Source: Hydrogenophilales bacterium 16-61-112
Lineage (GTDB): Bacteria; Pseudomonadota; Gammaproteobacteria; Burkholderiales; Thiobacillaceae
Direction: 5' to 3'
Length of the DNA stretch: 55,219 bases
NCBI GenBank assembly: GCA_002257045.1
Contig: NCHD01000010.1
Location: forward strand, 1 to 55,219
Both the position numbers and the translations under genes were made by a program. The notes beneath the pieces are model-generated. The model worked only from the letters and a program-made list of their open reading frames with translations, did no database searches and had not been told where the DNA came from. Shown here piece after piece: positions 2,126-19,806 of the stretch. Numbering within the stretch: position 1 is the stretch's first letter; every line of letters begins with the position of its first letter.

Positions 2126-2818
2126 ATGCGAGCTGTCTCGATTTATGTATGGGCTGTCGCCATGACAATTGGAGCCTCGACCACAGTGGCGGGTCCTGCC
2201 ACCGGAGATGTCGCGGCAGCGGCATGCACGAGTTGCCATGGCAAAGACGGCGCTGGCAATGCCGAAGCTGGGTTTCCCGCGCTGGCGCAACTGCCCCACA
2301 AGTATTTCATAAAGCAGATTGCCGACTTCAAGTCCGGCGCGCGCACCAGGACCAGAGACCTGCATGTCGGTGACAGCGAAGCCTCCGAAGGCTATGGCTA
2401 CTACGTCAGTTTCATGAAGTCCGTCGCCAAGGCATTGAGCGCCGAGGATGCGGAAGCCGCAGCACGCTATTTCGAGGGCCTGGAACGGCCGACGCTCGTT
2501 CCGGTCGCGGCAGATCCTGCGGTGATCGCGCGTGGCAAGCAACTCGCAGTCAATGGCGACTGGGACCGCGAGATCCCCCCCTGCTTCAAGTGTCATGCCG
2601 TAGACGGCCGTGGCGTGGCGCCGTCATTTCCGCCGATCTCAGGACAGCACGCGGCATACACCGAAAGGCAATTGCAGGCGTGGAAGACCGGCAGCCGAAC
2701 CAACGATCCGCAAAAGCTCATGAAGGCAACGGCGGAAAAACTCACGGATGACGAAATACGCTCGGTCGCCGCCTATCTGGCGACGCTCGGAACCCAGAGT
2801 CAAGGGGGAGGAAAATGA
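2126..2818 (+). CDS. tsdB: Dihaem cytochrome c (c4 family), TsdB-like
   Basis: A secreted two-haem cytochrome of 230 residues. It has a Sec signal peptide (about residues 1-23) and two CxxCH haem sites: CTSCH at 34-38 and CFKCH at about 153-157, each in its own cytochrome c4-like half. A GGAG sequence lies 10 bp before the ATG. The stop overlaps the next start by four bases (ATGA), so it is translationally coupled to the TsdA-like gene. In known TsdBA systems a c4-type dihaem cytochrome TsdB accepts electrons from the thiosulfate dehydrogenase TsdA; the pairing here is the main reason for the name. The probable role is periplasmic electron carrier towards the terminal oxidases. A generic cytochrome c4 function remains possible. 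Confidence 0.75.
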   Translation: MRAVSIYVWAVAMTIGASTTVAGPATGDVAAAACTSCHGKDGAGNAEAGFPALAQLPHKYFIKQIADFKSGARTRTRDLHVGDSEASEGYGYYVSFMKSVAKALSAEDAEAAARYFEGLERPTLVPVAADPAVIARGKQLAVNGDWDREIPPCFKCHAVDGRGVAPSFPPISGQHAAYTERQLQAWKTGSRTNDPQKLMKATAEKLTDDEIRSVAAYLATLGTQSQGGGK

Positions 2819-3933
2819 AAAAACCGGTGCAGTACTTGTTCTACATGCTGGCTCTGGGCGTCATCACCACGAGCTGTGCCAAACAGCCGGCCACGCGCAC
2901 GACCGCCGACACGCTGCCTGTCACCGCCCCCGCGCCGACGCAAGACACGTCAGGATCGGCCAGGACCGCCGCGCCGGCCGCCAGCGTCGCGGGGCGGGGC
3001 GAAGCCGATTCGAAAAAGCCGGCGACGGCCAAGTTCGTACCGCCTTCCGAAAGCGCAATCCCGAAAAACGAATTCGGCGAGTCGGTGTTGCTGGGAAAAA
3101 AAATATTCATGAACACCCAGCAATACGCCAAGCGTTATGTAGGCAACGGCTTGAATTGTGCCAACTGTCATCTGGATAACGGTCGCAAGACAGACTCCGC
3201 GCCAATCTGGGCAGCGTACGTTCTTTACCCTGCCTATCGCGCAAAAACCGGGCAGATCGACACCATCCAGAGCCGTATCCAGGGATGTTTCATGTACAGC
3301 ATGAATGGCACGGCGCCTGCCTTCGACAGCAAGGAAATGACGGCCCTGGTCACCTACCATTACTGGCTCGCCAGCGGCGCGCCGACCCGCGTCAAGATGA
3401 CTGGCCAGGGTTTCCTGCAGCTGCCCAAACCGGCAAAGAGCCCGGATCTCGCGCGTGGCGAAGATGTGTTCAAGAACAATTGCGTGATTTGCCACGGGGC
3501 GAATGGTGAGGGCACAAAAGCCGCCAGTGGGGAGTACGCATTCCCGCCACTCTGGGGTAAAGACTCGTTCAATTGGGGCGCGGGCATGCACCGCATCGAT
3601 ACCGCCGCAGGCTTTATCAAAGTCAACATGCCTTATGGGCGCTTCGGCACCCTGAGCGACCAGGAGGCGTGGGATGTAGCCTTGTTCATGAATAGCCATG
3701 AGCGTCCAGGCGACCCGCGTTTCAAGGACAGCCTTGAAGCGACGCGCGACAAGAACCACGACGAAAACTGTCTCTACGGACGCACGCCCGGGCAACTCGC
3801 AGCGCTGCTCGAGAAAAAGGCAGCGAAAAAGGCCGAGGCGGATAAAGCCAAGGCCAGGGAATCGGATGACAAGGCGTCCAAGGAGCGGACCACGCCGCTA
3901 TGGGATGGATATTCCCCCGCAACCGCGCATTAG
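2815..3933 (+). CDS. tsdA: TsdA-like thiosulfate dehydrogenase, dihaem lipoprotein
   Basis: A 372-residue dihaem cytochrome that probably oxidises thiosulfate to tetrathionate, or the reverse, in the periplasm. The N-terminus resembles a lipoprotein signal (LGVITTSC), followed by a Thr/Pro/Ala linker. Haem sites are CANCH (115-119) and CVICH (223-227). Between them lies IQGCFMYSMNG with Cys158, matching the place where TsdA enzymes carry the unusual axial cysteine ligand of haem 1. A Met in VNMPYGRFG is a candidate haem 2 ligand. These features separate it from ordinary dihaem cytochromes. The C-terminal ~45 residues form a Lys/Ala/Glu-rich tail that is probably disordered and not expected from the family. 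It is coupled to the TsdB-like gene by a 4 bp overlap. Assignment is by motif recognition; SoxA-related cytochromes are the main alternative. Confidence 0.75.
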   Translation: MKKPVQYLFYMLALGVITTSCAKQPATRTTADTLPVTAPAPTQDTSGSARTAAPAASVAGRGEADSKKPATAKFVPPSESAIPKNEFGESVLLGKKIFMNTQQYAKRYVGNGLNCANCHLDNGRKTDSAPIWAAYVLYPAYRAKTGQIDTIQSRIQGCFMYSMNGTAPAFDSKEMTALVTYHYWLASGAPTRVKMTGQGFLQLPKPAKSPDLARGEDVFKNNCVICHGANGEGTKAASGEYAFPPLWGKDSFNWGAGMHRIDTAAGFIKVNMPYGRFGTLSDQEAWDVALFMNSHERPGDPRFKDSLEATRDKNHDENCLYGRTPGQLAALLEKKAAKKAEADKAKARESDDKASKERTTPLWDGYSPATAH

Positions 3934-4179
3934 GATCTCCGACCCCAATATGGCACAGCCGGTGAAACGGATGGATTTTTCTTCCGCCTGCACGCAGCGG
4001 CGGGAATGCTCCGCCGCATGCTTCCGGGCATGTTGGTCGACCTCTGGTCTGCGGACCGGCCCGTGTTGAATGTCGGAAAACGTCCTACCAGGAATATCCC
4101 TGCGCGCGCTCCCCACCCGCTTGACGCGTTGCCACGCAACACCCTGCAAGCCGCTCGCAATCCCAAACGAAGGGTTATC

Positions 4180-5817
4180 ATGAAAAGACGCAAATTTCTT
4201 CAGTACACCGCTGCCACTGGACTTGGCCTGCTCGGCAGCGGTCTTGGATTCGGCGCCCGGGCCAGCGCGGAACCGGGCGCCCTGCCGGGGACCACCGGCA
4301 CGGCGGGCGCGCACACGGCTGCCCCGCATATGCCCCTGCACATTCCGGGCGACAGCGGCCTCCTCGGCATGCTCGATATCACCACCGAGCACCTCACCCT
4401 CGATGCCCACAACACTACCTTGCGGCTGAGGCAGAACACGCCGTCGCCTTTTCAGGTCTGGTCGGCGAAATACGCCGGCAAGGATTATCAAAACCCGATC
4501 ATCCGCATCAAGACCGGACAGCATTTTAACGCCCGTCTGCAGAATAACCTGAACGAGCCGAACATCATCCACTGGCACGGCCTGCACATACCCGGCGACA
4601 TGGACGGACAACCCCGCAGCATGATCGATCCCGGGGGACATTTCGACTACGCCTTTGACGTGCCCAATCGCAGCGGGATGTATTGGTACCATTCGCATGC
4701 CCACCATCACACCGCCCAACAGGTGTATTTCGGCCTGGCAGGCATCTACATGGTCGAAGACGAAGACGAGCGCGCACTGCGCAACGCGCTGCAAATCGAA
4801 CCGGGGCTGAACGAAATACCGCTGATCATTCAGGACAGACAGTTCAACAGTGCCGGCGAACTCACCTATGCATTCAATCCGATGCAGCACCACATGGGCC
4901 AGCTCGGCGACACTATCCTGGTCAATCTCACCCCGCACCCGAAACTGGAGATCACGAACCGTCTCTACCGGTTCCGGGTGCTGAACGGATCGAATTCCCG
5001 CATTTATAAACTGGCCTTCGTTCATGGCGACAAAATGCTGCCGTATTCGATCATAGGCACCGACGCCGGCTTGCTGGAGCGGGCTCACGTCACGCAGCAG
5101 GAATACATATCACCGGGCGAGCGGCTCGACATCGTGTTCGATGCCAGCCAGCTGCGTGCCGGTGACGAGGTCTATCTTAAAAGTCTTGCCTTCGATCCGC
5201 TGGAAGGCGGAACCATGCTCGGCATGGGCGAATTGATGGGCGGCGTGTCGGGCTGGGGCGGGACAGAGGGCGCCCGCCTCGATCTCGGCGCCGAATTCGA
5301 AATCATGAAAATCGCAGTCACCCGGGAAAGTCCGGCCCGGCCGTCCGGCATGATCCCACCCAAACTTTCGACCATCGCGCGCATCGATACCGGCGGCGCG
5401 GTGAGGCGGGATGTGCGGCTGACGGTGCGACGCATGCTGTGGCTGATCAACGGCGAAACCTTCACCCCCGATCGATACCCTCTGCAGAGCCGCAGCAACA
5501 CCATCGAGCTGTGGGATATCCAGAACGCCGAAATGAGCATGCCCCACCCCATGCACATGCACGGCTTCTCGTTCCAGGTGGTCCAGCGCAGCAATAGTCC
5601 GAGCCAGGTGCGCGCACTGGCCCAGGACGAAAACGGACGGCTGATCACCGATCTTGGCTGGAAAGACACCATACTGGTGTGGCCGGGGGAGACCGTGCGC
5701 ATCGCGACCGACTTTACGCATCCTTACAAGGGCGACCAGATTTACCTGTTCCACTGCCACAACCTGGAACACGAGGACCAGGGCATGATGGTGAACCATC
5801 TCGTCACCGCCGCGTAG
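4180..5817 (+). CDS. Tat-exported multicopper oxidase (laccase/CotA-like)
   Basis: A 545-residue three-cupredoxin-domain oxidase that couples substrate oxidation to reduction of O2 to water in the periplasm. All four copper-binding motifs are present: HWHGLHIPGD, WYHSHAHHH, HPMHMHGF, and the type 1 site HCHNLEHEDQGMM with an axial Met. The N-terminus RRKFLQ plus a hydrophobic stretch is a twin-arginine signal. The frame is open further upstream, but AAGGG five bases before this ATG and the Tat motif immediately after it fix the start. The last motif resembles CotA/bilirubin-oxidase types more than CopA. The substrate is unknown: metal ions, phenols or a sulfur compound are possible. It lies downstream of the TsdBA pair after a 246 bp gap and converges with the Sco/cytochrome pair. 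Confidence 0.85.
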   Translation: MKRRKFLQYTAATGLGLLGSGLGFGARASAEPGALPGTTGTAGAHTAAPHMPLHIPGDSGLLGMLDITTEHLTLDAHNTTLRLRQNTPSPFQVWSAKYAGKDYQNPIIRIKTGQHFNARLQNNLNEPNIIHWHGLHIPGDMDGQPRSMIDPGGHFDYAFDVPNRSGMYWYHSHAHHHTAQQVYFGLAGIYMVEDEDERALRNALQIEPGLNEIPLIIQDRQFNSAGELTYAFNPMQHHMGQLGDTILVNLTPHPKLEITNRLYRFRVLNGSNSRIYKLAFVHGDKMLPYSIIGTDAGLLERAHVTQQEYISPGERLDIVFDASQLRAGDEVYLKSLAFDPLEGGTMLGMGELMGGVSGWGGTEGARLDLGAEFEIMKIAVTRESPARPSGMIPPKLSTIARIDTGGAVRRDVRLTVRRMLWLINGETFTPDRYPLQSRSNTIELWDIQNAEMSMPHPMHMHGFSFQVVQRSNSPSQVRALAQDENGRLITDLGWKDTILVWPGETVRIATDFTHPYKGDQIYLFHCHNLEHEDQGMMVNHLVTAA

Positions 5818-5831: not shown

Positions 5832-7469
5832 TCATGGAACGATCAACGCATCCTGTAGCGGCTCGATCCGCTGTCCGTCGGCATCGGCGAAACGCACCAT
5901 ATAGATGCCCTTGGAACTGAAACGCTGGCCGGGACCCAGGCTGAAGCGGGGATAGGCCTGCGGCGCGGAGGCCAGGCCCATGGTCTCGGGATAGTTCTCC
6001 ACCCATTCCACCAGATAGTCGCGCAGATAATTGCCGCGCAGCCGGAGCATGCCTTCGGATAGCAGGTTGCAGGCTGCGAGGGTATTTCCCTGAAGTCGCT
6101 CGTCTGCGCGAGCGAGGCCGTATTTTTTCAGCCAGGGCCGCAGATAGCGCTGCATGCGTTGATCCCATCGCGCCGGGGCATCGAACCCGTAGGCGAGCAC
6201 GGCTACTTTCCGCCACGCCGGGTTGAGTGGTGCTGCCTGCATCCCCGACAGAATGCCCGAAACCAGAACCGATTCCGTCCGGGGCGGCAACGGCACCCGC
6301 TGCATCAATCCGGCCAGCTCGGTTGGGGTCAGCCAGAGAACCAGCGCATCGTTTGCCGCAAGCCCGGAGAGCCGGTCTTGGTCGTTGTCCAAGCGCCACG
6401 TCTCCACCGGCACCCCACTGTCTGCCAGCGCCCGGGTCAGCATCTCCGCGGCCCGCTGAGCGCGATCAGACCGCCCCACCAGTTGAACGACCCGCCCCGA
6501 ACGCAAAAGCGTTGAATCACGCGCCGCAAGCTGCCGTGCAAAGACCGCCGCCTCCAACCATAGGCCGCGTGAGAAATAAAAACTGTACCTGCCTGCCCCG
6601 GCGTCGGCGGCGGGCTGCACATTGGGAAAAAGGCAGGGCAATTCCGCGCGCTCGCAAAAAGCTTCGACCGGTGACCACGCCTCGCCACCCAAACCTGAAA
6701 TCATGGCAAACACCGGCTGGCGCGCATGGTAATCGGCAAGCTGCCGGTGCCAACTCTGCGGCGGTCCCACCAGCGTCCAGACATGCAACTTCCAAAACTG
6801 GCGATCGCCGCTTTCCGCGTTGCCGGACGGCCCCTTTGTTTGATCAAGGGCATGCTCGGCGAAGCACGCGTTGAGCACGCCGATCATGGCCTCGCGATCG
6901 CCCGGCTCGACGCGGGGGGTTATCACTGTGGCGAAATGGACGACCCGTTCATCGACGCCTGGCGAGCGCTGCGGCGACAGGCTGCGCAAATAGACAGCGA
7001 GTGCCTTCATGGCTGCGTCGTCCAGTGTGTAGCGTGGCATCAGGATACTGAAGCGACGGCCATCGTTTGAATGGCCGTTACGGATCGCCTGCGCCAGGGT
7101 GCTTTCGTTGTAGGGCGCGCGGGTGCGGAACGGATAGTCGCGAAAGTCCATGCCCGGGGCGCGGCGAGGTGCGTAACCGTCTGGCAGGCGGGCGCCGAAC
7201 AGCGCCGGGCCAGTGATGGGCGGAATGACATTGGCCCCTTCGGCAAGGCCCATTCCGCTGCGCTGATGGCACTGGACGCAGGCGGCGGCAGCGCCGACAA
7301 GGCGAGATCCTTCGCCGCGCGTCGCGGTCAGCGGTCGCCCTGAAGGCAGCCGGCCTTCGTGATAAATCGCGCGCCCTGCCGCAAGGTGCTGCGCGTCGGC
7401 CATGTCGAGCGCCGCGCTGTCGCCCGATCCGACCCAGACTCCAACCAGAAACCAGATGGCAACCTTCAT
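5832..7469 (-). CDS. Cytochrome c fused to a periplasmic ABC-type binding-protein domain
   Basis: A 545-residue exported protein with an unusual two-part architecture. After a short signal peptide, residues about 25-165 form a single-haem cytochrome c domain (CVQCH near 64-68, possible Met ligand in ILMPRY). Residues about 170-500 look like a type 1 periplasmic binding protein of the Leu/Ile/Val-receptor kind (PVFAMISGLGGEAWSP, SGRVVQLVGRSDRAQRAAEM, VLVSGILSG). No permease or ATPase genes are near, so transport is unlikely. Ligand-gated electron transfer or sensing is an inference. It starts 15 bp downstream of the sco gene, so the two are probably co-transcribed. The Shine-Dalgarno sequence is weak. 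Domain assignment of the C-terminal part is by overall pattern and less certain than the cytochrome. Confidence 0.7.
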   Translation of the reverse strand: MKVAIWFLVGVWVGSGDSAALDMADAQHLAAGRAIYHEGRLPSGRPLTATRGEGSRLVGAAAACVQCHQRSGMGLAEGANVIPPITGPALFGARLPDGYAPRRAPGMDFRDYPFRTRAPYNESTLAQAIRNGHSNDGRRFSILMPRYTLDDAAMKALAVYLRSLSPQRSPGVDERVVHFATVITPRVEPGDREAMIGVLNACFAEHALDQTKGPSGNAESGDRQFWKLHVWTLVGPPQSWHRQLADYHARQPVFAMISGLGGEAWSPVEAFCERAELPCLFPNVQPAADAGAGRYSFYFSRGLWLEAAVFARQLAARDSTLLRSGRVVQLVGRSDRAQRAAEMLTRALADSGVPVETWRLDNDQDRLSGLAANDALVLWLTPTELAGLMQRVPLPPRTESVLVSGILSGMQAAPLNPAWRKVAVLAYGFDAPARWDQRMQRYLRPWLKKYGLARADERLQGNTLAACNLLSEGMLRLRGNYLRDYLVEWVENYPETMGLASAPQAYPRFSLGPGQRFSSKGIYMVRFADADGQRIEPLQDALIVP

Positions 7470-7484: not shown

Positions 7485-8126
7485 TCAGGCCGGAGGCTGC
7501 AGCAGCCGGCGATATTCCCTGACCAGATCATCCGCGGTGGCAAATCCGTCCAGACGAACCCAGGGCTGTCCGGGCGCGGCACGCATGAAAACCACCGGGC
7601 GGTGGTTCATCTTGTCGCCGTAATAAGCGCCGAATGCCTTTTGAAGCTGCATGCTCGCCTCCACGGTCCCGCCGTAATGCCGCCACTGGGGGCCGGCCTG
7701 ATAGCGCTGTGCGTAAGCTGCAAGGCGCGCGGGCGTATCGTGTTCAGGATCGATGGAAACCGACATCATGCGCAGTTGCTTCGCCTCGTCGCCGAGCTTT
7801 TCCTGAAACCCGGCAAAGATATGACTCAGCATGGGGCACACGGCGGTGCACGTGGTGTAGATGAAGTTAAGCACCACCGGCTTGCCGTCCGCGAGTTCGG
7901 CGGGAAACGCCACTGGCGTGCCGTCGTCCCGCGTCAGGGTTATATGGGGCACGGCGATGTCATGCAAAGAGCGTCGATAACCCGGTTCTGCCGGGGCGTG
8001 ATGATGCGCATGGTCGGCTTCGGCTTCCGCCGCAGCCGGCGCGGCAGCCAGCCCATCGAACGTCGCCATCGAAAGGACCATCAGGGGCGTGAAGAAGTAC
8101 ACAAGTACACCAGATTTTGGGGTCAT
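7485..8126 (-). CDS. Sco/SenC family copper chaperone-type protein
   Basis: A 213-residue exported thioredoxin-fold protein of the Sco1/SenC family, which bind copper or act as thiol-disulfide reductases in assembling CuA oxidases or other copper enzymes. It has an N-terminal signal/anchor helix, a His-rich segment (HAHHH), the copper-binding CTAVCP motif (CxxxCP), and a conserved-type His near the end in NHRPVVF. It lies 15 bp upstream of the cytochrome/binding-protein fusion on the same strand. The nearby multicopper oxidase suggests copper handling for a redox enzyme here and not for the oxidase clusters 20 kb away, which have their own Sco. Confidence 0.88.
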   Translation of the reverse strand: MTPKSGVLVYFFTPLMVLSMATFDGLAAAPAAAEAEADHAHHHAPAEPGYRRSLHDIAVPHITLTRDDGTPVAFPAELADGKPVVLNFIYTTCTAVCPMLSHIFAGFQEKLGDEAKQLRMMSVSIDPEHDTPARLAAYAQRYQAGPQWRHYGGTVEASMQLQKAFGAYYGDKMNHRPVVFMRAAPGQPWVRLDGFATADDLVREYRRLLQPPA

Positions 8127-8265: not shown

Positions 8266-8305
8266 CCCCGTTCGTATTGCCGAACACATTTTTTGCATGT
8301 GGTGA

Positions 8306-8701: not shown

Positions 8702-11700
8702 TTATTTACCGCCGCCACGCCGGGGCTCGCCGGTAACGGTGTGCAACGGCCGAGCCAGCGCCCAGCCCCAGGAGTTGCCGATATACAGCGTATCGCCCAG
8801 CACAGTCGGATGGTTGTAGGTAAACGCCCCGCCGACCGGGTAAGTGTTCAACTGCGTACCGGTACGCGCATCGAAGGTGATCAGGCTGTCGCCCACGGGC
8901 TGGATCAGCCGGGAATGATCGACCACCACACCGGGACCCCAACTGGGTTTTCCGAGCGTCATCGCGACCGGGGTTTGCCATAGTTGCGTACCGTCGCGCA
9001 CGTCGAGCGCAACCACCGCCTGATCCATCGGATTGCTCATGAAAACCGTGTTGTTGTCGATCACCGGGGTCGGGCCCACGAAGCCGTAGGGCGGCACGCC
9101 GGAACTCAGCGCCTGGGTCCAGACGATGTCGCCGGTTTTCGCGTTCAGTGCAAAGGCGGTCAGCGTGACCGGGCCGTCGAGCGTATCCTCACCAACAAAA
9201 ATACTGCTGACCACCAGGCCGCGATTCTGGTCCACGGCAGGCGAGACAGCGGAAAAGCCGGTGACATAGGTATCGGGGAAGGTCTGTTTCCAGACGATGC
9301 TGGCGTCATCGAGATTGATGGCGACGAATTCGTCCGGCATGGCCTTGCCCACAACCATGATCGGCGCCTGACTGCCGGGTTGACGGTAAATGTTCGCTGA
9401 GCTGATCGAGTTGAAGCCGCCCAGACTGACTTTGGGCGAACCGACGCCGTTCATGAATGTGCTCACCGGCGCCCCCGTCTCGGCGTTGATCGCCCAGATC
9501 CGCCCGTCGCCAGCGACCCAATACAGATTGCCCTTGTCATACAACGGGGTCATGGCGCTGGTTGCGCCTGCGGTATAAAAGGTCCATTTTTCCACCCCGG
9601 TCTCGGGATCAAGCCCGGTCAGGTGCTGGAATCCGCTGCCGGCCTGGGTGCTGGCCGAATCTGCCCGGAACGTGGCCGTTGACCCCAGCGGAAAATGCGG
9701 GTCGCCTGCGCTGACCACGACGGTCTTGGGTGTCACCAGCGGCTGACCGAAGTTTGCATTGCTGGTACGGTACGTCCAGATCACCTTGCCCGTGGTGGCG
9801 TTCAACGCGTTGATCGTGTTGCGATCGCTGCCGACATAACTGATGCCGTTGACCTGGGTGATGCCCGTGCCCACGCCAAAGGCGAGGTGCGTCATGTGAG
9901 TGGCGGCCTCGGTACCAAATATGGCTTCATTCCGTGGCGGTGCATTCAGCGGAATCGCATCGTTCATCGGCGTACTCCAGGAAATGCCGTCCGGTCCGTT
10001 GGGAACGAACGCGTTATTCTCCTGCCCCCCCGCGTACGCCAGCCAGGTCACAGGAAACGCTTTAGCCTGCTTTTTGCTTGGCAACGCTGCTGCATCAAAG
10101 TAAATGGGCTTTTGTGCGGGGATCGGGTGTGGCGGTGGAAACGGCCGCTGACCGAAGCCCGGCGAACTCATCAGGTAATCGAGTGGCGCCGCGAACACCC
10201 ATCCGGACAGTGCCCCCAGATAAACCATATTGCCCAACACGGCCGGCTGGTTGGCAGAGAAAGCAGAGAAGGTTCCGGGCGTTTCGAAATCGTTGAGTAT
10301 CACGCCGGTGGCGGCGTCGAAAGTCCGTATGTCGCGCCCTTCCACATGCAGGATCTTGCCGTCGATATAGACGCCCGCAGCGTGTCCGCGGTGGCGTTGA
10401 TTGGGGGTGTCGTCGGGTTCTTCCAGGCTGGTGGCCCATATCAACGCGCCCGTCGTGATGTTGTAGGCACGATAGGTCTCGTTGAGCGGATTGCCCATAT
10501 AAACCACGTCGCCGTTCACCATGGGCACCGAGCCTTTGAAACCGGGAATCGCAGGGCCGGTGCCGCCCGAAGCGGACCAGCGCACCGCGCCGGTCGTCGC
10601 ATCGAGCGCGTACACCACGAGATCGAATACCCCGCTGGTGGCGGTCGACGTGAATACATTGGTGATGACGACGCCATTGACCTGATCCACCACGACCGGA
10701 GTGTCGCCGGGCGCGTTGGAGGAAGCGCCAACCGGTGTATAGGACCAGCCCAGCACCGGCGCTGCCGGATTGGTCACGTCCACCGCAATGATTCTGCCCG
10801 GCCGGTTCACCCCATAGGTGATGAACAGGCGGCCGTCTGCGGTCTTGAACCAGTTCGGCGACGCCAGACCGGAATATCCTTCTCCGGGGTTGGTGAACGT
10901 CGACAGCAGCGCACCGCTGCTGGCATTCAATATATATAGGTGGCCGTCACCGTTGGTGATGTAGAGCTTGCCGTCCTTGTAGATCGGGGACGGGCGTGAT
11001 GCGCCCATAGTATCGAAGCGCCACAATTGCGCACCGGTCAAACCGTCCAGGGCATAGACCGACGAGAACGACGCGCCGCGGTCATGGGTCATGCCGTTCT
11101 TGAAGCGAATGGTGTTTTCGAGGTTGTAGTTGGCGTCGCCGGACGACACGAACACGATGGGGCGGCCGCCGATCTTTTCGACCGCGACCTGGCTATTGCC
11201 AGCGGTGCTGATCAGCTTCGTCTTCCAGATGGGTGCGCCGGTCCTGGCCTCGACCGCCCACACCTCGTTGCGGCTCAGGGGCGAGTAGACGATACCGTCG
11301 ACGACCGAGACACCCATCAAGTTGCCTAACGTGCCCGCGACCGCCGATCCCCAGCTCTGGGTGCCATCGTCCGGGAAAGCAGGAATCGCGCCCGACAAAC
11401 GCAGAAACTCGTCGCCAGTCAGCGGGGCGGCCCAGAATACGCCGCTACGCAAAAACTCGGGCGCGTCGGCCGGTATGGGAAACAGCGTGTTGTGCTGCTG
11501 GTTGAACCCCAATTGATTCCAGCGCTCCGGAAAAGCCGAACGCGCATCCGCGTCGGCATAGGTCGTTGCCGGCTTGAACGTCAGCAAGGCATCGAGATTT
11601 TCCGGCATGCTGCAATTGAACATTTGCTCGGTGCGCAAGGTTTCAGGATTGCACGGCGGGCCGTCGCTGGCCACGACCGGGGTCAGGGCGAACGCCTGCG

Positions 11701-11749
11701 CTACGCATAAAGCCGTGAGGCGGAGTGAGAAATCGGCAAGGGTTTTCAT
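8702..11749 (-). CDS. Secreted double PQQ-type beta-propeller protein, tetrathionate-hydrolase-like module duplicated
   Basis: A 1015-residue protein with a Sec signal peptide (cleavage probably after VVAS, about residue 28). It holds many PQQ-binding-like repeat units (for example VWAVEARTGAPIWKT, INALNATTGKVIWTYR, VVALDVRDGTQLW). Two halves can be recognised, about residues 73-540 and 566-1010. Each opens with FPxxW followed by a Gly/Gln/Asn-rich segment, and each ends with a similar phrase (NQPAVLGNMVYLGALSGW and NHPTVLGDTLYIGNSWGW). Each half is about the size of tetrathionate hydrolase, a PQQ-like propeller enzyme. A Cys pair (residues 33 and 46) follows the signal. GGAG sits 7 bp before the ATG. 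The next gene upstream encodes a full-length paralogue. A PQQ-dependent dehydrogenase or a non-catalytic scaffold are alternatives. Confidence 0.7.
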   Translation of the reverse strand: MKTLADFSLRLTALCVAQAFALTPVVASDGPPCNPETLRTEQMFNCSMPENLDALLTFKPATTYADADARSAFPERWNQLGFNQQHNTLFPIPADAPEFLRSGVFWAAPLTGDEFLRLSGAIPAFPDDGTQSWGSAVAGTLGNLMGVSVVDGIVYSPLSRNEVWAVEARTGAPIWKTKLISTAGNSQVAVEKIGGRPIVFVSSGDANYNLENTIRFKNGMTHDRGASFSSVYALDGLTGAQLWRFDTMGASRPSPIYKDGKLYITNGDGHLYILNASSGALLSTFTNPGEGYSGLASPNWFKTADGRLFITYGVNRPGRIIAVDVTNPAAPVLGWSYTPVGASSNAPGDTPVVVDQVNGVVITNVFTSTATSGVFDLVVYALDATTGAVRWSASGGTGPAIPGFKGSVPMVNGDVVYMGNPLNETYRAYNITTGALIWATSLEEPDDTPNQRHRGHAAGVYIDGKILHVEGRDIRTFDAATGVILNDFETPGTFSAFSANQPAVLGNMVYLGALSGWVFAAPLDYLMSSPGFGQRPFPPPHPIPAQKPIYFDAAALPSKKQAKAFPVTWLAYAGGQENNAFVPNGPDGISWSTPMNDAIPLNAPPRNEAIFGTEAATHMTHLAFGVGTGITQVNGISYVGSDRNTINALNATTGKVIWTYRTSNANFGQPLVTPKTVVVSAGDPHFPLGSTATFRADSASTQAGSGFQHLTGLDPETGVEKWTFYTAGATSAMTPLYDKGNLYWVAGDGRIWAINAETGAPVSTFMNGVGSPKVSLGGFNSISSANIYRQPGSQAPIMVVGKAMPDEFVAINLDDASIVWKQTFPDTYVTGFSAVSPAVDQNRGLVVSSIFVGEDTLDGPVTLTAFALNAKTGDIVWTQALSSGVPPYGFVGPTPVIDNNTVFMSNPMDQAVVALDVRDGTQLWQTPVAMTLGKPSWGPGVVVDHSRLIQPVGDSLITFDARTGTQLNTYPVGGAFTYNHPTVLGDTLYIGNSWGWALARPLHTVTGEPRRGGGK

Positions 11750-11815
11750 GAGTGTTCTCCAGTAATATAGTCAGGTTTCAGATGGCAGTGGCCATCGTTC
11801 ACCGGGTGTCTGCCA

Positions 11816-11844
11816 GGCGGCCGGGCAATGCGTGTCCGGCCGCC
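11816..11844. other. Strong intergenic hairpin between the two propeller genes
   Basis: A perfect 9 bp inverted repeat (GGCGGCCGG at 11816-11824, CCGGCCGCC at 11836-11844) with an 11-base loop lies in the 149 bp between the paralogues. It lacks a T run on either side, so it is more likely an attenuator or mRNA-stabilising hairpin than a full terminator. Confidence 0.5.
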
Positions 11845-11898
11845 ACTGCTGATAGGTCTCGTACTGACATATCCGTGCATTCATGGCACGGGGCTTGA

Positions 11899-14800
11899 TC
11901 AATCATCTTCATCCTCCTCCTTGTCGCCTGTCACCTGTTTCACCGGCAGCGCGGTAACCCAGCCCCACGAGTTGCCGATGTAGAGCGTTTTTCCAATCAC
12001 GGTGGGATGGTTGTATGTCATCGAACCGCCGAGCGTGAGCTGATTGAGCTCGCTGCCGGTTTTGGCGTCGAAGGTATACAGCGTGGGGCCGACGGGTTGA
12101 ATCAGCTTCCCTTTCACCAGCACGCCCGGTCCCCAGCTCAGGCGACCCGGCAAGGTGGTGACTGGAGACCGCCACTCGATAGCGCCGGTCATCAGGTCCA
12201 GTGCGACCACATCGTTGCCGATCGGGTTGTTCATATACGCCGTGTCTCGGTCGAGTAAGGGCGTGGGGCCGACGAAACCGCCGACCGGAATCGCGCCGGT
12301 GGCGATGGCTTGTTTCCACACCACTTGCCCGGTCGTGGCATTCAGCGCGAACGCCAGTTGGGTAATCGTGTTGTTCGCGACATCGGCATCAATCAGGACC
12401 GTACCGACGACCAGGCCACTTATCTGGCTCACCGCCGGCGGTACCGTCGCGAATCCGGTCAGATAGCTGACGCCGGCGGCTGCCAGGTCTTGCGTCCAGA
12501 CCACGGCTGCTGTTGCCAGATCGATCGCCACCATGCGGTTAGGCATGCTCATGCCCACCACCATGATGTCAGTGCCGCCCTTGCGATAGACGTTTGCCGA
12601 AGAAATCGCATTGAATCCACCCAGCGACAGCACGGGCAGGCCGTCTACGTCCATGAACGGGGCGACCGGCTCGCCGCTATCGGCATTGACTGCCCATACC
12701 TTGCCTTCGCCGTTCACCCAGTACAGATTGTCCTTGCTGTAAAGCGGGGTCATCGAACTGGTTCCCAGGCCACTGAACACGGTCCATTTTTCGACGCCCG
12801 TGAGCGGATTGAAGCCGCGCATATAGCCCCAGTTGTCGCCGACCGAAGTGGCCGGCGAGCGGGTCCGGAACGCACCCGTGCCGCCCAGACTCAGCCATGG
12901 ATCGCCACCACCGAGCACCACGGTGTTGGGCGTGACGACGGGTTGGCCGAAATTGGCATTCTGGGTGCGCGCGCGCCAGATCACTTTTCCGGTGGAGGCG
13001 TTCAGGGCGTTGACCGAGAAACGATCGCTGCCTGTGTACAGGATGCCGTTCGCAGGTGAGACGCCGGAGCCGACGCCCACATACTGATGCATCATGTGAC
13101 TGGCGATCTCGTCGCCATATAGCGCGGCGTCGAGGGGCGGCGACTCGAGGGGGTAGGCATCCTTGAGCGGGGTTTGCCAGGCGATTTTGCCGGGCCCCTT
13201 GGGCAAGTAGCTGTTGTGGTCCTGGCCGCCGGCATAAGCCAGCCATTCTTTGGGAAACTCCTTCGCCTGCTGCTTGTTTGGCAAGGCGGCAGCATTGAGC
13301 ATTTCCGGCAGGATGGGCGGTAGCGGCAGGGATTCGATCGGCAACAGGCCTCGATCCACGCCGGACTGGCTCATGATGAAATCGACAGGGGCAGCGAAGA
13401 CCCAGCCCGAGATAGACGACTGAATCATCAGCTTGCCGATGATCACCGGCTGGTTGATGCCCCAGACGGCAAACAGTCCGGGATTTTCAAAACGGTTGAG
13501 TTCGACGCCGGTTGCGGCATCCAGGGTGTGGATGTCACGTCCCTCGGCGACGATCACCTTGCCCTCGTAGAAAACCGCTGCCGACCGTGGCCGATGGGTG
13601 AATTCCGGCAGGTCGTCCGGTTCACGGAAATCGGTCACCCATAGACGCGTACCGCTGACCGCATCGAATGCCTGAAATGTGCCGTTGGACGTGTTGCCTG
13701 CGTAGACCACGCCATCGTGCACCATGGGCACGCTGCCCTTGAAGCCGGGAGGACTGTCGCCCTCGCCCATCAAGTGGCTCCACACGACGGCACCGGTGGT
13801 GGCATTGAGCGCGAGCATGTTCAGATCAAACACTGGCGCTGCATCCGTCCCCGTGTTGATAAACACCGTGGTGTACACCAATCCGAGATCGGGATCGACC
13901 GCGGCGGAAGTGTCGCCCGGCGCATTGGCCGTGGCGTCCACAGGCGTATGTGTCCATGCCAGCGTCGGCGCAGTGGGATTGGTCACGTCCATCGCCAGGA
14001 TACGACGCGGTCGAATGGTGCCGTAATAAATCAACTCGCGTCCATCCGCTGTGGTGTACCAGTTCGCCGCAGCAAGCCCGCTAAAGCCTTTACCGGGGTT
14101 GGTGACATTGCCCAATTCCGCACCGCTCGCGGCGTCCAGCACGATGAACTTGTTGTTATTGGTGGTGACGTACAACTTGCCGTTGCGGTAGACCGGCGTC
14201 GGTCGTGCCGAACCCCTGGTGTCGTAACGCCAGACCTGTTCTCCCGTCAGACCGTCGAAAGCGTAGATCCCGGAAAAGTTGGCGCCGCGAAAATGTGGCT
14301 TGTCGTTGGTGAAATCGATCGCGTTCTGAACGGTAAAGGCGGCATCGCCCACCGGTGAAAACACCATCAGCCGACCGCCGACTTCCTCGACTAGCGCCTG
14401 GCCCATCCCGGCGGCGGTGGTAACCTCCTTGTGCCAGATTGGTACGCCCGTGTCGGCCCGTATCGCCCATATATCGCGACGTCCGTTCTGTACATAGGCG
14501 ATGCCGCGCGCGACCGACGGGCCCATCACGTTCCCGAGATACTGCGACGTGGTCGATCCCCATGCCTCAGCGTCGCCGCTGGCCGGTAGTGCGCGCCGAA
14601 TATCCATGAAATCGAGGCCCGTGAGCGGCGCAGCCCAGAAGGTCCCCTGCTGGAGGAATTCGGGAGCATCGGCAGACACGCCGAACACCGGGTTATGGCG
14701 CTGGTTGAACCCGAGTTGACTCCAGTTCTGGGGAAAATGCGCCGCGCCCGCGATGGCCGGCGCGGACGCGCGGGCCACGGTAGGCACAGAGCGGCTGGTG

Positions 14801-14994
14801 GTGGGCAACGGTTTGACCACGAGTTTCGGATTCGATGTATACGCCTCGCAGCGGAACATCTCGGGAGTCCCGACCTTGTCTGGCGAACAAGGCTTGGGTT
14901 TGGGGGCGGCACTGGCGTTGGCGGACAACGTGAACGATCCCGCCGCGATCAACGCAACCAGTAAGCGGGATCGCCAGACTTGGTTCGTGTTCAT
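11899..14994 (-). CDS. Secreted double PQQ-type beta-propeller protein, paralogue of the downstream gene
   Basis: A 1031-residue exported protein that aligns end to end with its neighbour. It has a Sec signal ending near ASA, a Cys pair in PCSPDKVGTPEMFRC, and the shared motifs NWSQLGFNQRHNPVFG, DAPEFLQQGTFWAAPLTG, and ANFGQPVVTPNTVV. The same internal duplication is visible: FPQNW opens the first half, FPKEW the second, and both close with a related GW-containing strand. The C-terminus ends in an acidic tail (DKEEDEDD) missing from the paralogue. The frame is open to 15222, but AAGGAG six bases before the ATG at 14994 and the signal peptide define the start. Tandem position suggests gene duplication after the internal fusion. 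A polythionate-hydrolase-like role is inferred from fold and neighbours. Confidence 0.7.
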   Translation of the reverse strand: MNTNQVWRSRLLVALIAAGSFTLSANASAAPKPKPCSPDKVGTPEMFRCEAYTSNPKLVVKPLPTTSRSVPTVARASAPAIAGAAHFPQNWSQLGFNQRHNPVFGVSADAPEFLQQGTFWAAPLTGLDFMDIRRALPASGDAEAWGSTTSQYLGNVMGPSVARGIAYVQNGRRDIWAIRADTGVPIWHKEVTTAAGMGQALVEEVGGRLMVFSPVGDAAFTVQNAIDFTNDKPHFRGANFSGIYAFDGLTGEQVWRYDTRGSARPTPVYRNGKLYVTTNNNKFIVLDAASGAELGNVTNPGKGFSGLAAANWYTTADGRELIYYGTIRPRRILAMDVTNPTAPTLAWTHTPVDATANAPGDTSAAVDPDLGLVYTTVFINTGTDAAPVFDLNMLALNATTGAVVWSHLMGEGDSPPGFKGSVPMVHDGVVYAGNTSNGTFQAFDAVSGTRLWVTDFREPDDLPEFTHRPRSAAVFYEGKVIVAEGRDIHTLDAATGVELNRFENPGLFAVWGINQPVIIGKLMIQSSISGWVFAAPVDFIMSQSGVDRGLLPIESLPLPPILPEMLNAAALPNKQQAKEFPKEWLAYAGGQDHNSYLPKGPGKIAWQTPLKDAYPLESPPLDAALYGDEIASHMMHQYVGVGSGVSPANGILYTGSDRFSVNALNASTGKVIWRARTQNANFGQPVVTPNTVVLGGGDPWLSLGGTGAFRTRSPATSVGDNWGYMRGFNPLTGVEKWTVFSGLGTSSMTPLYSKDNLYWVNGEGKVWAVNADSGEPVAPFMDVDGLPVLSLGGFNAISSANVYRKGGTDIMVVGMSMPNRMVAIDLATAAVVWTQDLAAAGVSYLTGFATVPPAVSQISGLVVGTVLIDADVANNTITQLAFALNATTGQVVWKQAIATGAIPVGGFVGPTPLLDRDTAYMNNPIGNDVVALDLMTGAIEWRSPVTTLPGRLSWGPGVLVKGKLIQPVGPTLYTFDAKTGSELNQLTLGGSMTYNHPTVIGKTLYIGNSWGWVTALPVKQVTGDKEEDEDD

Positions 14995-15216: not shown

Positions 15217-15240
15217 CTTCATTTCGATCCCAAAAGCCTT

Positions 15241-17088
15241 TTAGAAAATCGTCGGTACGCCGAGCAGGGGCTGGATTTCAGGGTTTCCGTAGACCGGTGC
15301 CGGCAATGCGAACAGGTTGTTCACCCGGCCCATCTCCGGATTGGCGACATTGTTTTTCAGGTAGTTCGCCACCACTGCGGTCCCGTCAAGCGCTTCCTCG
15401 TCGGCACCCTTGACGACCGTCACGGCCGCCTGGGTTCTGATGCCGCCGACCACCTGCGGATCCTGTGCATACCAGTAACCAGCGAAGGTATAGGATGCAA
15501 GCGGATCGAGCGGCTCCCAGGTACCGGTCGCAGCCCGCTGGATGCGGACGTTGGAAATACGCGAACCCAATGGTCTATAGGCATCGATATCCATCCGCAC
15601 CCCGCCATACCCATTCAGCCAGCCGCCTGTCCAGGCGAAGACATCAGGATTCAGTGAGCCGTTAGCGCTATTCTCGATATTGTTTTTAATCTGTTGGCCG
15701 GTGAGGGTGATCTTGGCAATTTGCGGACCAATGGGAATATGGTGATAGATGTCCTCAAGCTTGATCGGGCCAGGTCGAACACGCGTGCCGTAGCGGAAGC
15801 CACGGAAATGACCGATATCGGCACCAGCCTGATCCCGGAACACGTCGGCATAGAAGTTAGACGAACTGCCTTCCAGAACCCCGGGGATGGGATGGTCCGA
15901 AAAGTTGCCGCGGTAAAGATCGATCTCGGCTATGCCGACTACTTTGTCGATCGGGGTGGCCAGCACGGTGCCGTTGATCGGATTGGTGTGTGCCACCAAT
16001 GCGGGGCCTTTGACAAAAGGGGCACGGATATTTCTGACCAGACTGTCGATACCCTTGTCCGCCTTGATATCGTCCGTGATGTGGTGCAATGCATAGGCGT
16101 ATGAGGCAATTTTCTTGCCGCCTTCACCAGGGTTGATCACTAGGTCCAGCTGAGCGATACGCGTGCCGTCCTGACCGGCTTCGGACACAATCGCACCACT
16201 TTCTGCAATGATTTCACGTGGTGTTTCCTCGTGCATGTCCGAGGACAACACAATGTCGATTTCCGGATTGGCGTTGGCAATCAAGACGTTTTTCGCCAGA
16301 CCGAACTCGGAAACCAGAATGATCAGGTCGACTTTTTCCTCATGTTTCAACTTGTCTACATAACCGGGGATTTCTTCAGCGTCTGCGGTAAAGTCGATCC
16401 CGACCGTCACGAACGGTCCCAGCGCATTGATCGCCCGCTCGCTTGACAAGCCAAGCACGCCGATCTTGACGCCATTAACATTCTTCACAAAATAAGGCGG
16501 CAAGAGCAAATTGGTCGTGCCGGCGTGATAGACGTTGGCAGCGACCGCACCGTATCGGGTTGCGGAAGGCCCTGTGCCGGTGCCGACTCCGAACAACTCG
16601 AGGAACCGGTCCTTGCCATACAAGTAGTCCCAGTTACCGGGGGCCATGCCTTCAATGCCGAAACGGTCCAGCACATCAATCAGCGCCTGGCCACGCGTGT
16701 AAAGTGCTTCGGCGCTGCCCTGAATGGTGTCGCCAGTATTGAATAGCACGACATTCTTTTTTTCCTGGCGAATTTGTTCGATCTTGGTGAACATCCGCGC
16801 CAGGCCCCCTTCTTCACCGCCCTCACCTTCGTCGCGCAGAGTCGGCCTGGGAATCATGTGGCCATGGATATCGCCGATTTGCACCAGAGTGATTTTGATG
16901 CCGCCATTCGAAGACGCTTTCTCCGCTTTGGCACTATCGCCGGCGAGCGCCAGCCCACCGGACGTGGCAGCAAACAACACGACAGCCCCCAGAACGTCCC
17001 ACGCGCGCAGCTGACTATAAAATCCAGCAGTGCGAGTTGTCGCACCGCTAGCTGGATTGTAACGATCGGCAATATTAAAAATTTTCAT
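15241..17088 (-). CDS. SoxB-like metallohydrolase (5'-nucleotidase superfamily)
   Basis: A 615-residue exported enzyme with an N-terminal metallophosphoesterase domain and a C-terminal 5'-nucleotidase domain. Metal-site motifs are GDIHGH, NTGDTIQGSAEALYTRGQ, GNWDYLYG, and SSDMHEE. The QGSAEALxTRGQ stretch is the SoxB type: SoxB is the di-Mn hydrolase that releases sulfate from the SoxYZ carrier. The usual GNHE of nucleotidases is GNWD here, with Trp in place of the catalytic-loop His, again as in SoxB-like enzymes. The signal anchor follows a long N-terminal region. The frame is open to 17169, but GGAGG five bases before the ATG at 17088 fixes the start. No soxY or soxZ is in the window, so the substrate is uncertain. 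It is divergent from its paralogue at 17767. Confidence 0.75.
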   Translation of the reverse strand: MKIFNIADRYNPASGATTRTAGFYSQLRAWDVLGAVVLFAATSGGLALAGDSAKAEKASSNGGIKITLVQIGDIHGHMIPRPTLRDEGEGGEEGGLARMFTKIEQIRQEKKNVVLFNTGDTIQGSAEALYTRGQALIDVLDRFGIEGMAPGNWDYLYGKDRFLELFGVGTGTGPSATRYGAVAANVYHAGTTNLLLPPYFVKNVNGVKIGVLGLSSERAINALGPFVTVGIDFTADAEEIPGYVDKLKHEEKVDLIILVSEFGLAKNVLIANANPEIDIVLSSDMHEETPREIIAESGAIVSEAGQDGTRIAQLDLVINPGEGGKKIASYAYALHHITDDIKADKGIDSLVRNIRAPFVKGPALVAHTNPINGTVLATPIDKVVGIAEIDLYRGNFSDHPIPGVLEGSSSNFYADVFRDQAGADIGHFRGFRYGTRVRPGPIKLEDIYHHIPIGPQIAKITLTGQQIKNNIENSANGSLNPDVFAWTGGWLNGYGGVRMDIDAYRPLGSRISNVRIQRAATGTWEPLDPLASYTFAGYWYAQDPQVVGGIRTQAAVTVVKGADEEALDGTAVVANYLKNNVANPEMGRVNNLFALPAPVYGNPEIQPLLGVPTIF

Positions 17089-17766
17089 GTCAGCCTCCAT
17101 CAAGTCGTGTTGTTCACAAGAATTCGAGGGATGAAATCGGGTCCGTTTTCCGGAATGCATCTCCGGCATGCGTCACCAGTAAAACGTCAAGTCCATCTCC
17201 CTTGTGAGCATTACAGTTCGCAGCGCGGACCTAAACAATCCTCGAAATCACTACGCCGTGATATGGCGGGTATTGATTTTGGAAGAGGCAAGACCTGGCC
17301 GAACCGCAGGCCGATACAATAAAAGCCCTTCAAACCAATCCCTTCTGGCGTCAACCCGTGCCTCCCTAGCTGCATCGGCAGGCACGTCACGGCAGCCAAC
17401 GCCGGTGTGTCAGCTGTGCCCGCAATGTCGTTTCCGGATGAGGGAGCAGATCGAACCCGAACGGATACGCGTCAGTCGCTGCCTACGTAGCGTGTCGCCT
17501 CGTCCTACGGGAAGTGAAGCGCCGCACGGACAGCAACAGGCGACGATCGGCCATATACTCGTATGGTTCGCGACAAGTTCGTAGTTCGAATGGTTTGCCT
17601 GGCTTGTCGGCAGAGCTGTTTCGGTGCGTCACTGTTCGAAACACCCGGTAACTGACGGTAATACGGGTTGCTGAAATAATTACATGCTTAAAGATTGGTC
17701 TCGTAGCTCTGCCATGGCTTTAATCCAGGCGACTCAGGCACAGTCAAAAATGAACCAAGGGCCGTA
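17089..17766. promoter_or_regulatory. 678 bp divergent intergenic region between two SoxB-like genes
   Basis: No gene that I can support lies here; short frames on both strands show no family features or good ribosome sites. Because both flanking genes start outward from it, it must hold both promoters. A weak inverted repeat ACCCG...CGGGT (17643-17668) lies about 100 bp before the plus-strand gene. An AT-richer stretch at 17672-17690 could be promoter DNA. No operator can be named. Confidence 0.45.
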
Positions 17767-19806
17767 ATGAACGCTATCGATAACGTCCACGATGCAAGAG
17801 GGTTTTTGTCGCCAGTCGAATACTCAACGCGTCCCCGCGCCGGGTTTTCAAGGACGCTGCTAAACGCGCTGTTGGCGTTTGGCGTGTCGATGACGGTCCT
17901 TGGTGGTTCAAGTGCAGCAACCCCGGACCCGGCAGTCACGATCACCTTCATCCATTTCAACGACCTTCATGCGCATTTGACGCCGCATGCCGACCTCGTT
18001 CCCGACGCGCCTGCGGGACAGACTTCCACGCAAACCCGGGTCGTCGAACGCGGCGGAATCGCGCGCTTGTCGACGATGGTTAAGCGCATTCGCGCCGATA
18101 ATCCCAATTCAATCTTCATGAATATCGGCGATACCTACCATGGCGGAGTCGAAGCGCTGTTCACCAATGGCAATGCGATTGTCGATCCAGTCAACGCCTT
18201 GAATATCGACGTCGGCGTGGTGGGCAACTGGGATTTTGCCTACGGTCCCCTGGTGACCCGCATGCGTTACAGCAATTTGCCGATCACCAAAATCATGGGT
18301 GCCGTGCAGCGTCGGGGCGGCTCGATGAAACGCAACGGGCCATTGAGCCGTATGCGTGGCAAATCCTCGGCGACGGGCGAAGACGCAGCGACCGAAAGGA
18401 TGATGCCCTTCGGTGAAATCAAGCGCCCCACTTTTCCCAACCTCGCCGCCAACGTGACCGTTACGATGCCGCCGATGCGGCGTGGACAGCTGCTCATGCC
18501 AGCGACCCTGATCAAGGAAATGGACGGGGTGAAAGTGGGCATGATCGGCTTGACTTCGGACATGGTGCCACGCATGCACAAGATGCTGGCAATGGGCCTG
18601 TCGTTTGTTGAAGGCGAGGAAAACTACCGTGAGCTCGTCAACCGCCACCAGAAAAAATTGCGGGCAGAGGGTGCGGATGTCGTCGTCCTCATGAGCGAAC
18701 TGGGCATTCAGAAAAACTACCGTCTCGCGCAAATCATTGATCCGGGTGTGGACGTCATATTCTCGGCGCACACCCACGAAGCCATCTACCAGCCGTTGGT
18801 CTCCCGCAGCGGTGCGCTCGTGGTCGAGGCGGGTAACGACGGCAACTTGGGGCGGATGGACGTGACGGTCAAGGGCGGCAAGGTGGTGGAGCGCCGCTGG
18901 AAGCTCAGCGCCATCGACCGCAGCATTCCGGAAGACCCCGAGATCAGGGCGCTGGTCGACAAGGCACGCGCACCGTTTCTGGCGAAGAACGTGAACATGG
19001 GCATTCCCATGCCGATGATGAAGCAAAAACTGACACGGCCGATCGACACCGTCATCGGTCACACCAATGTCGTGCTGGACCGCCGACAGGTGGTCGGCAG
19101 CCGGTTCAACAATCTGATGGGCGCGATTTTGCTACGCAAGTCGGGAACCGATGTGGCGATAACCCCCGGATTCCGGTTCGATAGCGTCGTGCCGGCCAGC
19201 GACAGTCCGGGTTTCGCTTCCGATGCCAGGGGCATGATGGAGGGGCGCAATACGCCAGTCGAAGACAACACCGTGGCGGCAGGCGACATCACGCTCGAAG
19301 ATGCCTATCGGTTCTTCCCTGTTCCGTATACGCTATCGACTGCAGAAATCAGCGGCGCCGGCTTGAAAAACGTCATGGAGGCGGCTCTGACCAACGTGTT
19401 TTCGCCCGATGTCTTCAAGCAGTCCGGAGGCTGGCTGGAGGGATTCTCCGGTCTCGGCGCTGTGCTCAGACTCGACGATGGGGACGGCGATCGCATTACC
19501 CGTCTGTCGCTGGACAAGACCGGCAAGCCCATCACTTCGACACAGGTGTTAACGGTGACCGGGTGTTCGCGACCGATGGACCCGGACGACACCCTGTGCA
19601 GCTATCCCGGATTCAGGAACGTCAAACCGCTTGTTAACGAAGCCACAGGCAACCCCTGGACGCCGGTCGATCTTTTTGTCGATGCGATGGCCCAGGGTGT
19701 GCGCCCTGGCGATACGAAATCGGGCCTGCGGGCTACAAGCGCCACGCCCATGTGGCCGCAGGCACCGTTCATTCAGCCTTTGCTGGGTACGGGTGGGCAC
19801 CGATAA
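17767..19806 (+). CDS. SoxB-like metallohydrolase, second paralogue
   Basis: A 679-residue exported protein of the SoxB/5'-nucleotidase superfamily. The metallophosphoesterase domain shows HFNDLHAHLTPH, MNIGDTYHGGVEALFTNG, VGNWDFAYG, and FSAHTHEAIYQP, with EAGNDGNLGR after it. The nucleotidase-type C-terminal domain includes DITLEDAYRFFPVPY and a disulfide-capable pair (GCSRPMDPDDTLC). As in the divergent paralogue, GNWD replaces GNHE. A Met/Arg-rich loop of roughly 60 residues (about positions 180-240, PMRRGQLLMP) is inserted in the catalytic domain compared with its neighbour. The signal peptide lies after an unusually long N-terminal segment (hydrophobic core at 30-50). AAGGG five bases upstream supports the ATG. 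The two genes are clearly different in sequence and probably differ in substrate. Confidence 0.75.
   Translation: MNAIDNVHDARGFLSPVEYSTRPRAGFSRTLLNALLAFGVSMTVLGGSSAATPDPAVTITFIHFNDLHAHLTPHADLVPDAPAGQTSTQTRVVERGGIARLSTMVKRIRADNPNSIFMNIGDTYHGGVEALFTNGNAIVDPVNALNIDVGVVGNWDFAYGPLVTRMRYSNLPITKIMGAVQRRGGSMKRNGPLSRMRGKSSATGEDAATERMMPFGEIKRPTFPNLAANVTVTMPPMRRGQLLMPATLIKEMDGVKVGMIGLTSDMVPRMHKMLAMGLSFVEGEENYRELVNRHQKKLRAEGADVVVLMSELGIQKNYRLAQIIDPGVDVIFSAHTHEAIYQPLVSRSGALVVEAGNDGNLGRMDVTVKGGKVVERRWKLSAIDRSIPEDPEIRALVDKARAPFLAKNVNMGIPMPMMKQKLTRPIDTVIGHTNVVLDRRQVVGSRFNNLMGAILLRKSGTDVAITPGFRFDSVVPASDSPGFASDARGMMEGRNTPVEDNTVAAGDITLEDAYRFFPVPYTLSTAEISGAGLKNVMEAALTNVFSPDVFKQSGGWLEGFSGLGAVLRLDDGDGDRITRLSLDKTGKPITSTQVLTVTGCSRPMDPDDTLCSYPGFRNVKPLVNEATGNPWTPVDLFVDAMAQGVRPGDTKSGLRATSATPMWPQAPFIQPLLGTGGHR

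Follow-up and report, generated by a model that had tools for sequence, protein, structure and literature searches.

The window analysed here, a contig of 55,219 nucleotides from Hydrogenophilales bacterium 16-61-112 (NCHD01000010.1), carries two adjacent genes whose products, p1 and p2, are each about twice the size of a tetrathionate hydrolase (TTH), an enzyme that hydrolyses tetrathionate to sulfate, thiosulfate, and sulfur. The question raised by this locus is what these proteins are and whether their double layout amounts to two active sites per chain. As judged from sequence comparison, p1 and p2 are a fused double form of the known TTH family, and the layout should not be taken to mean two active sites per chain, as only the N-terminal half (N half) of each protein, and not the C-terminal half (C half), keeps the catalytic aspartate. 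Both open reading frames are intact and lie on the minus strand, p1 at 8702..11749 (1015 aa, ATG at 11749) and p2 at 11899..14994 (1031 aa), where AAAAGGAG precedes the ATG at 14994. The proteins share 50.5% identity across 1026 aligned positions, confirming the original prediction that the locus holds two tandem paralogues of ~1000 residues, and both appear to be exported, judging by eye from their N termini.

The internal duplication that had also been predicted is borne out by comparison of the halves. The N half of p1 is 29% identical to its own C half over 486 positions (E 5e-46), and the corresponding values for p2 are 28% over 502 positions (E 6e-30). Profiles built from six N rows and six C rows, one C row being partial, match each other with E 2.4e-52 and 436 columns in register. 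Chance resemblance of the p1 halves was ruled out by shuffling of the p1 C half, with a maximum of 20.8 bits in 50 shuffles compared with 155 bits for the real sequence. Rotation of the p1 C half by 57-residue steps gave scores of 153 (no rotation), 153, 138, 112, 93, 84, 105, and 122, which back the register in part only, as one of the seven rotations left the score undiminished; self-comparison in this control gave no off-diagonal matches and is not counted as evidence. The matching opening and closing strands proposed for each half were located in both proteins, with FPxxW at residues 73 and 565 of p1 and 87 and 580 of p2, and with the closing strand GW...P(L/V) terminating every half. On the minus strand, the N-terminal and C-terminal propellers occupy 10181..11533 (residues 73-523, from FPERW to GWVFAAPL) and 8744..10057 (residues 565-1002) in p1, and 13384..14736 (residues 87-537) and 11941..13257 (residues 580-1018) in p2. 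Between the two proteins, the N halves are 48% and the C halves 54% identical, values higher than the 28–29% found within each protein, and the internal fusion is therefore older than the tandem duplication. The N-terminal extension holds a cysteine pair, Cys33/Cys46 in p1 and Cys36/Cys49 in p2, for which a disulfide is possible. This pair is present in five of the six N rows of the alignment, the exception being the protein from G087, a genome of the same order. Apart from Cys15 in the signal region of p1, these pairs are the only cysteines of p1 and p2.

The closest known structures to both proteins are those of TTH from Acidithiobacillus ferrooxidans (Af-TTH; PDB IDs 6L8A and 7CQY), with E-values against 6L8A of 5.6e-54 for p1 and 6.1e-47 for p2. 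For p1 the TTH match scores 187 bits, followed by designed repeat propellers at no more than 140 bits (best E 8.6e-40) and, among natural propellers, by the PQQ-type protein 3HXJ (43 bits, 1.3e-10) and BamB (28 bits, about 5e-6); for p2, TTH scores 164 bits and BamB follows at 34 bits (1.4e-7). The N-half profile aligns with residues 34-466 of the 6L8A chain in one continuous stretch (E 2.4e-66, 228 bits), and the C-half profile likewise covers residues 21-467 of the 7CQY chain (E 2.4e-59, 205 bits). Designed propellers are the runners-up to the two profiles, at 141 bits (N) and 89 bits (C), and BamB scores 45 and 50 bits, respectively. Af-TTH is an eight-bladed propeller (PMC10859504). Because each half spans nearly the whole of this chain, two eight-bladed propellers are expected per protein, the predicted blade number being inherited from the full-length alignment to 6L8A. 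By homology, each half constitutes a complete PQQ-type propeller of ~450-470 residues; the whole proteins, at 1015 and 1031 aa with two modules each, depart from the single-propeller subunits of ~48-58 kDa published for TTHs (PMC10859504 Table 1). At the level of sequence profiles, p1 and p2 each contain two full modules that are both nearest to TTH, in agreement with what had been expected of them.

The two halves differ at the essential acid of TTH. In Af-TTH, Asp325 is the proposed general acid, and the D325N variant is inactive (PMC10859504). By alignment, its equivalents are Asp349 of p1 (10703..10705) and Asp361 of p2 (13912-13914), and the same position in the C halves is occupied by Ala834 of p1 (9248-9250) and Thr850 of p2 (12445-12447), all on the minus strand. 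The column is Asp in all six N halves, in 24/24 single-module relatives (every single-module match retained), and in Af-TTH, with Asn at this position in the 7CQY sequence. None of the six C halves has Asp, the residues being A, T, A, A, S, and A; one of these rows is incomplete, and another piece, of 72 residues, stops short of the column. Separately built hmmsearch profile alignments reproduced this register. Other positions were compared in 140 conserved columns, those with the same residue in 22 or more of the 25 single-module rows. Lys381 is Lys in all six N halves and Val or Thr in all six C halves, and Arg208 is Arg in all six N halves and A/V/V/I/L in the five C halves having the column. 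Arg428 is Arg in four and His in two of the N halves, and Trp in 6/6 C halves. Arg208, Lys381, and Arg428 may line the pocket. The C halves keep other positions that are lost in at least five of the six N halves (such as 169, 175, 321, 322, 463, and 482), and the N halves are therefore not simply the conservative ones. In the proteins examined, the joining of an N copy that has the catalytic residue to a C copy that has lost it points to an enzyme carrying its own helper.

Double proteins were found in four genomes: that of the window (G000), G087, and two members of the class Nitrospiria, G467 and G881. They occur in 2/100 relatives, including 1/56 in the genus, in 1/369 genomes of the class sample, 2/399 of the order sample, and 1/398 of the sample of the window's phylum, and in 2/295 genomes of the G467 phylum and 2/14 of the G467 class; these overlapping samples include the window genome where present and were searched with cut-offs ranging from 1e-20 to 1e-60. 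For the remaining phyla the sole coverage was a pattern scan of genome contigs, which reaches close relatives and gave 13 stretches, of which one was confirmed, and the plasmid collection gave no double-protein match. In G467, contig C66 has the C-terminal end of a second copy followed by an intact p1-type gene, and contig C133 ends in a p2-type N-terminal part; assuming that the two pieces are one gene, the order p2 then p1 probably recurs in this genome. Such scattered occurrence points to horizontal transfer. Mis-binning of the contig was also considered; on its rpoH side, the window shares its gene order with genus relative G011 (locus L078), in which rpoH and the genes after it match at 64–93% identity. 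In G018 (L077), the closest relative examined by RpoH (95%), rpoH and the two genes that follow have matches. The sulfur genes of the window had no match before rpoH in the 13.7 kb of L077 or the 9.7 kb of L078. The window genome also encodes, on another contig (L037:8591-10129), a single-module TTH-like protein of 512 aa with the Asp motif.

In a tree with eight PQQ alcohol dehydrogenases as the outgroup, the TTHs and the double halves split from the dehydrogenases at 100/100. The N halves form one clade (100/100), as do the C halves (100/100), and N and C halves together form one clade at 99/98, with the divergent single-module rows G093 and G678 outside the main TTH clade. Approximately unbiased (AU) tests rejected the placement of the N halves with the main TTH clade (p 0.003) and weakly rejected that of the C halves with the single TTHs (p 0.038); a topology with the N halves among all single TTHs and the C halves outside was not rejected (p 0.143). 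The original prediction held that one module was fused to itself and that the fusion was then duplicated. This history is likely from the trees, and its order of events agrees with the identities of the halves, but the self-fusion itself is not proven because the alternative with p 0.143 stands. For the N and the C halves alike, p1 groups with G467a, the intact protein from Nitrospiria, and p2 with G881, and G467b_N joins p2/G881. The G087 protein falls outside, with good support in the two trees for the N halves (98/94 and 99/96); for the C halves its position is open in one tree and weakly supported in the other (87/68). From this pairing, the duplication into p1 and p2 probably predates the separation of the lineages or their gene exchange. 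The first tree of halves left out both C-terminal fragments of the second protein from Nitrospiria, and the outgroup tree and AU tests also omitted G379 (a very long branch) and the close or identical single-module rows G874, G917, G884, and G892.

The surrounding genes encode further putative sulfur and electron-transfer proteins. Directly upstream of p2 and co-directional with it is a SoxB-like gene, 'a' (15241..17169, minus strand), with metallophosphoesterase and 5'-nucleotidase C domains, and a second, divergent SoxB-like gene, 'b', recognized by profile matches, lies at 17767..19806 (plus strand). Both score below the cut-off of 550 bits of the SoxB model TIGR04486, at 174 bits for 'a' and 186 bits for 'b'. 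In both, Glu replaces the His of the SH(L/N)G motif found in aligned 5'-nucleotidase or SoxB, and 'a' has SDMH instead of GHSH; their metal sites may be altered. A SoxB-like homologue adjoins the double gene in 4/4 genomes, with 43–56% mutual identity and all well below the SoxB cut-off. Among 80 genomes selected by the authors, homologues of 'a' scoring above 330 bits occur in 4/4 with the double protein, 3/22 with a single-module TTH only, and 2/54 of the rest, in which nothing TTH-like matched at the cut-offs applied. Because 'a' is thus present in 5/76 other genomes, it was rejected as a marker for the double protein. On the other side of p1 lie a co-directional gene for a SCO1/SenC-like protein (7485..8126, minus strand) and one for a c-type cytochrome of 545 aa recognized by profile match (5832..7469, minus strand), whose C-terminal part of 380 residues matched nothing in Pfam, NCBIfam, or the PDB with the cut-offs applied. 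Further away, on the plus strand, are a c-type cytochrome with two CxxCH motifs (2126..2818), a diheme SoxA/TsdA-like cytochrome c (2815..3933) sharing 32% identity with one from the G087 cluster, and a multicopper oxidase recognized by profile match (4006..5817). The window genome has SoxY above the family cut-off, and a Sulf_transp family gene lies ~5 kb from the p1-type gene of G467. A promoter and terminator scan of 5700-18000 gave at most a modest excess over shuffles (6 vs 3.7 and 12 vs 12.0) and was not used.

Multiheme c-type cytochromes with 5-14 CxxCH motifs are found near the double genes of G087, G467, and G881. Three of them, beside double genes in G467 and G881, have 69–80% mutual identity: L044:4064-7534, L036:4139-6211, and L043:2-1702, with 14, 9, and 7 CxxCH motifs, respectively, the last cut by the contig end. 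In L036 one SoxB-like gene lies between the multiheme cytochrome and the double gene. Near the single-module TTH gene of the window's own genome (L037, contig C96) there are two SoxB pieces in short frames, one at 15588-16217 (201 bits over 161 aa) and one at ~10562-11122, judged by eye, with a full-length homologue of 'a' (57%) between them. The pieces are presumably a broken gene or the result of assembly errors.

On balance, and by a modest preference, p1 and p2 are best explained as exported TTH-lineage hydrolases of tetrathionate-like S-S compounds, in which a catalytic N propeller is joined to a non-catalytic C partner replacing the second TTH subunit. Af-TTH is described as a cofactor-free homodimer in which water attacks the terminal sulfur and the dimer interface holds two insertion loops (PMC10859504). 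In p1 and p2, two eight-bladed propellers of this lineage would be fused in one exported chain. Following the proposal for Af-TTH, the aspartate of the N propeller would protonate a sulfane sulfur of tetrathionate or of a similar S-S compound, and attack of water on the terminal sulfonate would release sulfate together with a sulfane-sulfur product. The C propeller, which lacks the acid and other conserved polar positions, would serve as a covalent non-catalytic partner that fills the role of the second subunit in the TTH homodimer, and the products may feed the adjacent SoxB-like protein and the c-type cytochromes. The activity, the substrate, the dimer-replacing role, and the electron routing are all predictions of this scheme.

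Several observations weigh against this proposal. The TTH of A. ferrooxidans Funis 2-1 is listed as 50 x 1 kDa, and both the homodimer and monomer fractions of Acidianus ambivalens TTH are active (PMC10859504 Table 1); with TTHs that are monomeric or active as monomers, the second subunit is perhaps dispensable, and the case for a pseudo-dimer is weaker for it. For the TTHs in that table, the optima lie at pH 1-4 (PMC10859504). The ratio of nonsynonymous to synonymous substitution rates (dN/dS) for the N and C halves is 0.09 and 0.16 (p1 versus G467a), 0.31 and 0.26 (p1 versus p2), and 0.18 and 0.28 (p2 versus G881), with dS of 1.2-1.7, which is near saturation; both halves look to be under purifying selection, a point in favour of the proposal, but dN/dS of the C half is not consistently above that of the N half. 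Given the single-module homologue elsewhere in the genome, tetrathionate hydrolysis may not need p1 or p2. The N pocket also departs from the standard one. Met172, Met238, and Met279 are described as lying near the substrate pocket in the TTH of Metallosphaera cuprina (PMC11818568); these numbers likely correspond to the Af numbering of our alignment, although the paper numbers its own enzyme. The single-module rows have Met at these positions in 25/25, 24/24, and 25/25 cases, respectively. Position 238 is Arg in all six N halves (Ala or Ser in C halves) and 279 is Leu in all six (Ile or Val in all six C halves), and 172 is Met in four and Asn in two N halves (Phe in 5/5 C halves). The substrate may accordingly differ from tetrathionate.

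This last point leads to the strongest alternative, which we nevertheless regard as clearly less probable, namely that p1 and p2 are TTH-lineage hydrolases of another substrate, such as longer polythionates or protein-bound or organic S-sulfonates, that is passed between them and the SoxB-like protein, with p1 and p2 dividing the range. Besides the changes at 238 and 279 in the N half, p1-type proteins have Asn172 and His428 where p2-type proteins have Met172 and Arg428, differences that are common to the window and G467a and may reflect different substrates. The separate single-module gene in the same genome and the SoxB-like homologue beside a double gene in 4/4 genomes also fit this alternative. 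Set against this, Asp325 and Lys381 are unchanged in every N half, and SoxB-like 'a' is present in genomes lacking the double protein.

It is improbable that p1 and p2 are non-enzymatic, as exported binding scaffolds or structural proteins of sulfur globules or the outer membrane that use the propeller as BamB does. PQQ propellers such as BamB are scaffolds, the generic PQQ_2 and BamB models match p1 and p2, and conserved polar positions are missing from the C half. However, the catalytic Asp and Lys do not vary among the six N halves, which come from two phyla, the BamB (YfgL) model TIGR03300 gives 103 and 108 bits, far under its cut-off of 285, and TTH outscores BamB in the PDB search by 159 bits for p1 and 130 bits for p2. 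A PQQ-dependent dehydrogenase, suggested by the match to the PQQ Pfam model, is very improbable, as p1 and p2 reach 65 and 68 bits with the alcohol-dehydrogenase model TIGR03075, whose cut-off is 480, the eight PQQ dehydrogenases stand apart in the tree, and the vicinal disulfide that such enzymes require in the pocket is excluded by cysteines confined to the extension and signal region. Identity with BamB or a PQQ dehydrogenase was rejected on the sub-cut-off model scores together with the tree.

Returning to the preferred explanation of a TTH-lineage hydrolase with a non-catalytic partner, a bolder and rather doubtful extension is that the locus represents an undescribed module for splitting S-S-sulfonates, shared by two phyla, in which tandem enzyme-pseudoenzyme TTHs with a dead C propeller that regulates or completes the live N propeller would act on different polythionate-type substrates (p1 and p2) together with a divergent SoxB-like hydrolase and c-type cytochromes. 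Few hydrolases act in sulfur oxidation, TTH and SoxB being the only ones named in PMC10859504, and no fused double TTH was described in the titles and abstract openings listed by searches of open-licence TTH papers, which is weak evidence of novelty. TTH has mostly been purified as a homodimer of identical single-propeller subunits, and a natural fusion in which the acid is kept in one copy and lost in the other offers a ready test of the role of the second subunit and of whether one active site per pair suffices. A family-level TTH match implies neither two active sites nor tetrathionate chemistry, a caution that bears on the annotation of sulfur metabolism from metagenomes.

When p1 and p2 are compared with known systems, the SoxB thiosulfohydrolase (TIGR04486; PDB ID 2WDC) is related to the locus through the neighbours 'a' and 'b', which are its distant relatives. 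The single-module homologue of the same genome belongs to the TTH family, keeps the GIGDVSP motif, and has a homologue of SoxB-like 'a' nearby; it differs in having one module and in grouping with ordinary TTHs, not with the double halves, in the trees. The M. cuprina enzyme TTHMc (Mcup_1281) is likewise a single-module family member with an equivalent Asp353, and its AlphaFold2 model is reported to be eight-bladed (PMC11818568). Compared by description and not by sequence, TTHMc differs from p1 and p2 in being a single propeller of about 57 kDa. The similarity to Af-TTH is closest, as the halves align with nearly the whole chain, the general acid Asp325 is kept in the N half, and cysteines are few. 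In contrast to Af-TTH, p1 and p2 have two modules per chain, a C half without Asp325, Lys381, and Arg208, an N half with Arg for Met238 and Leu for Met279, and an N-terminal extension with a cysteine pair.

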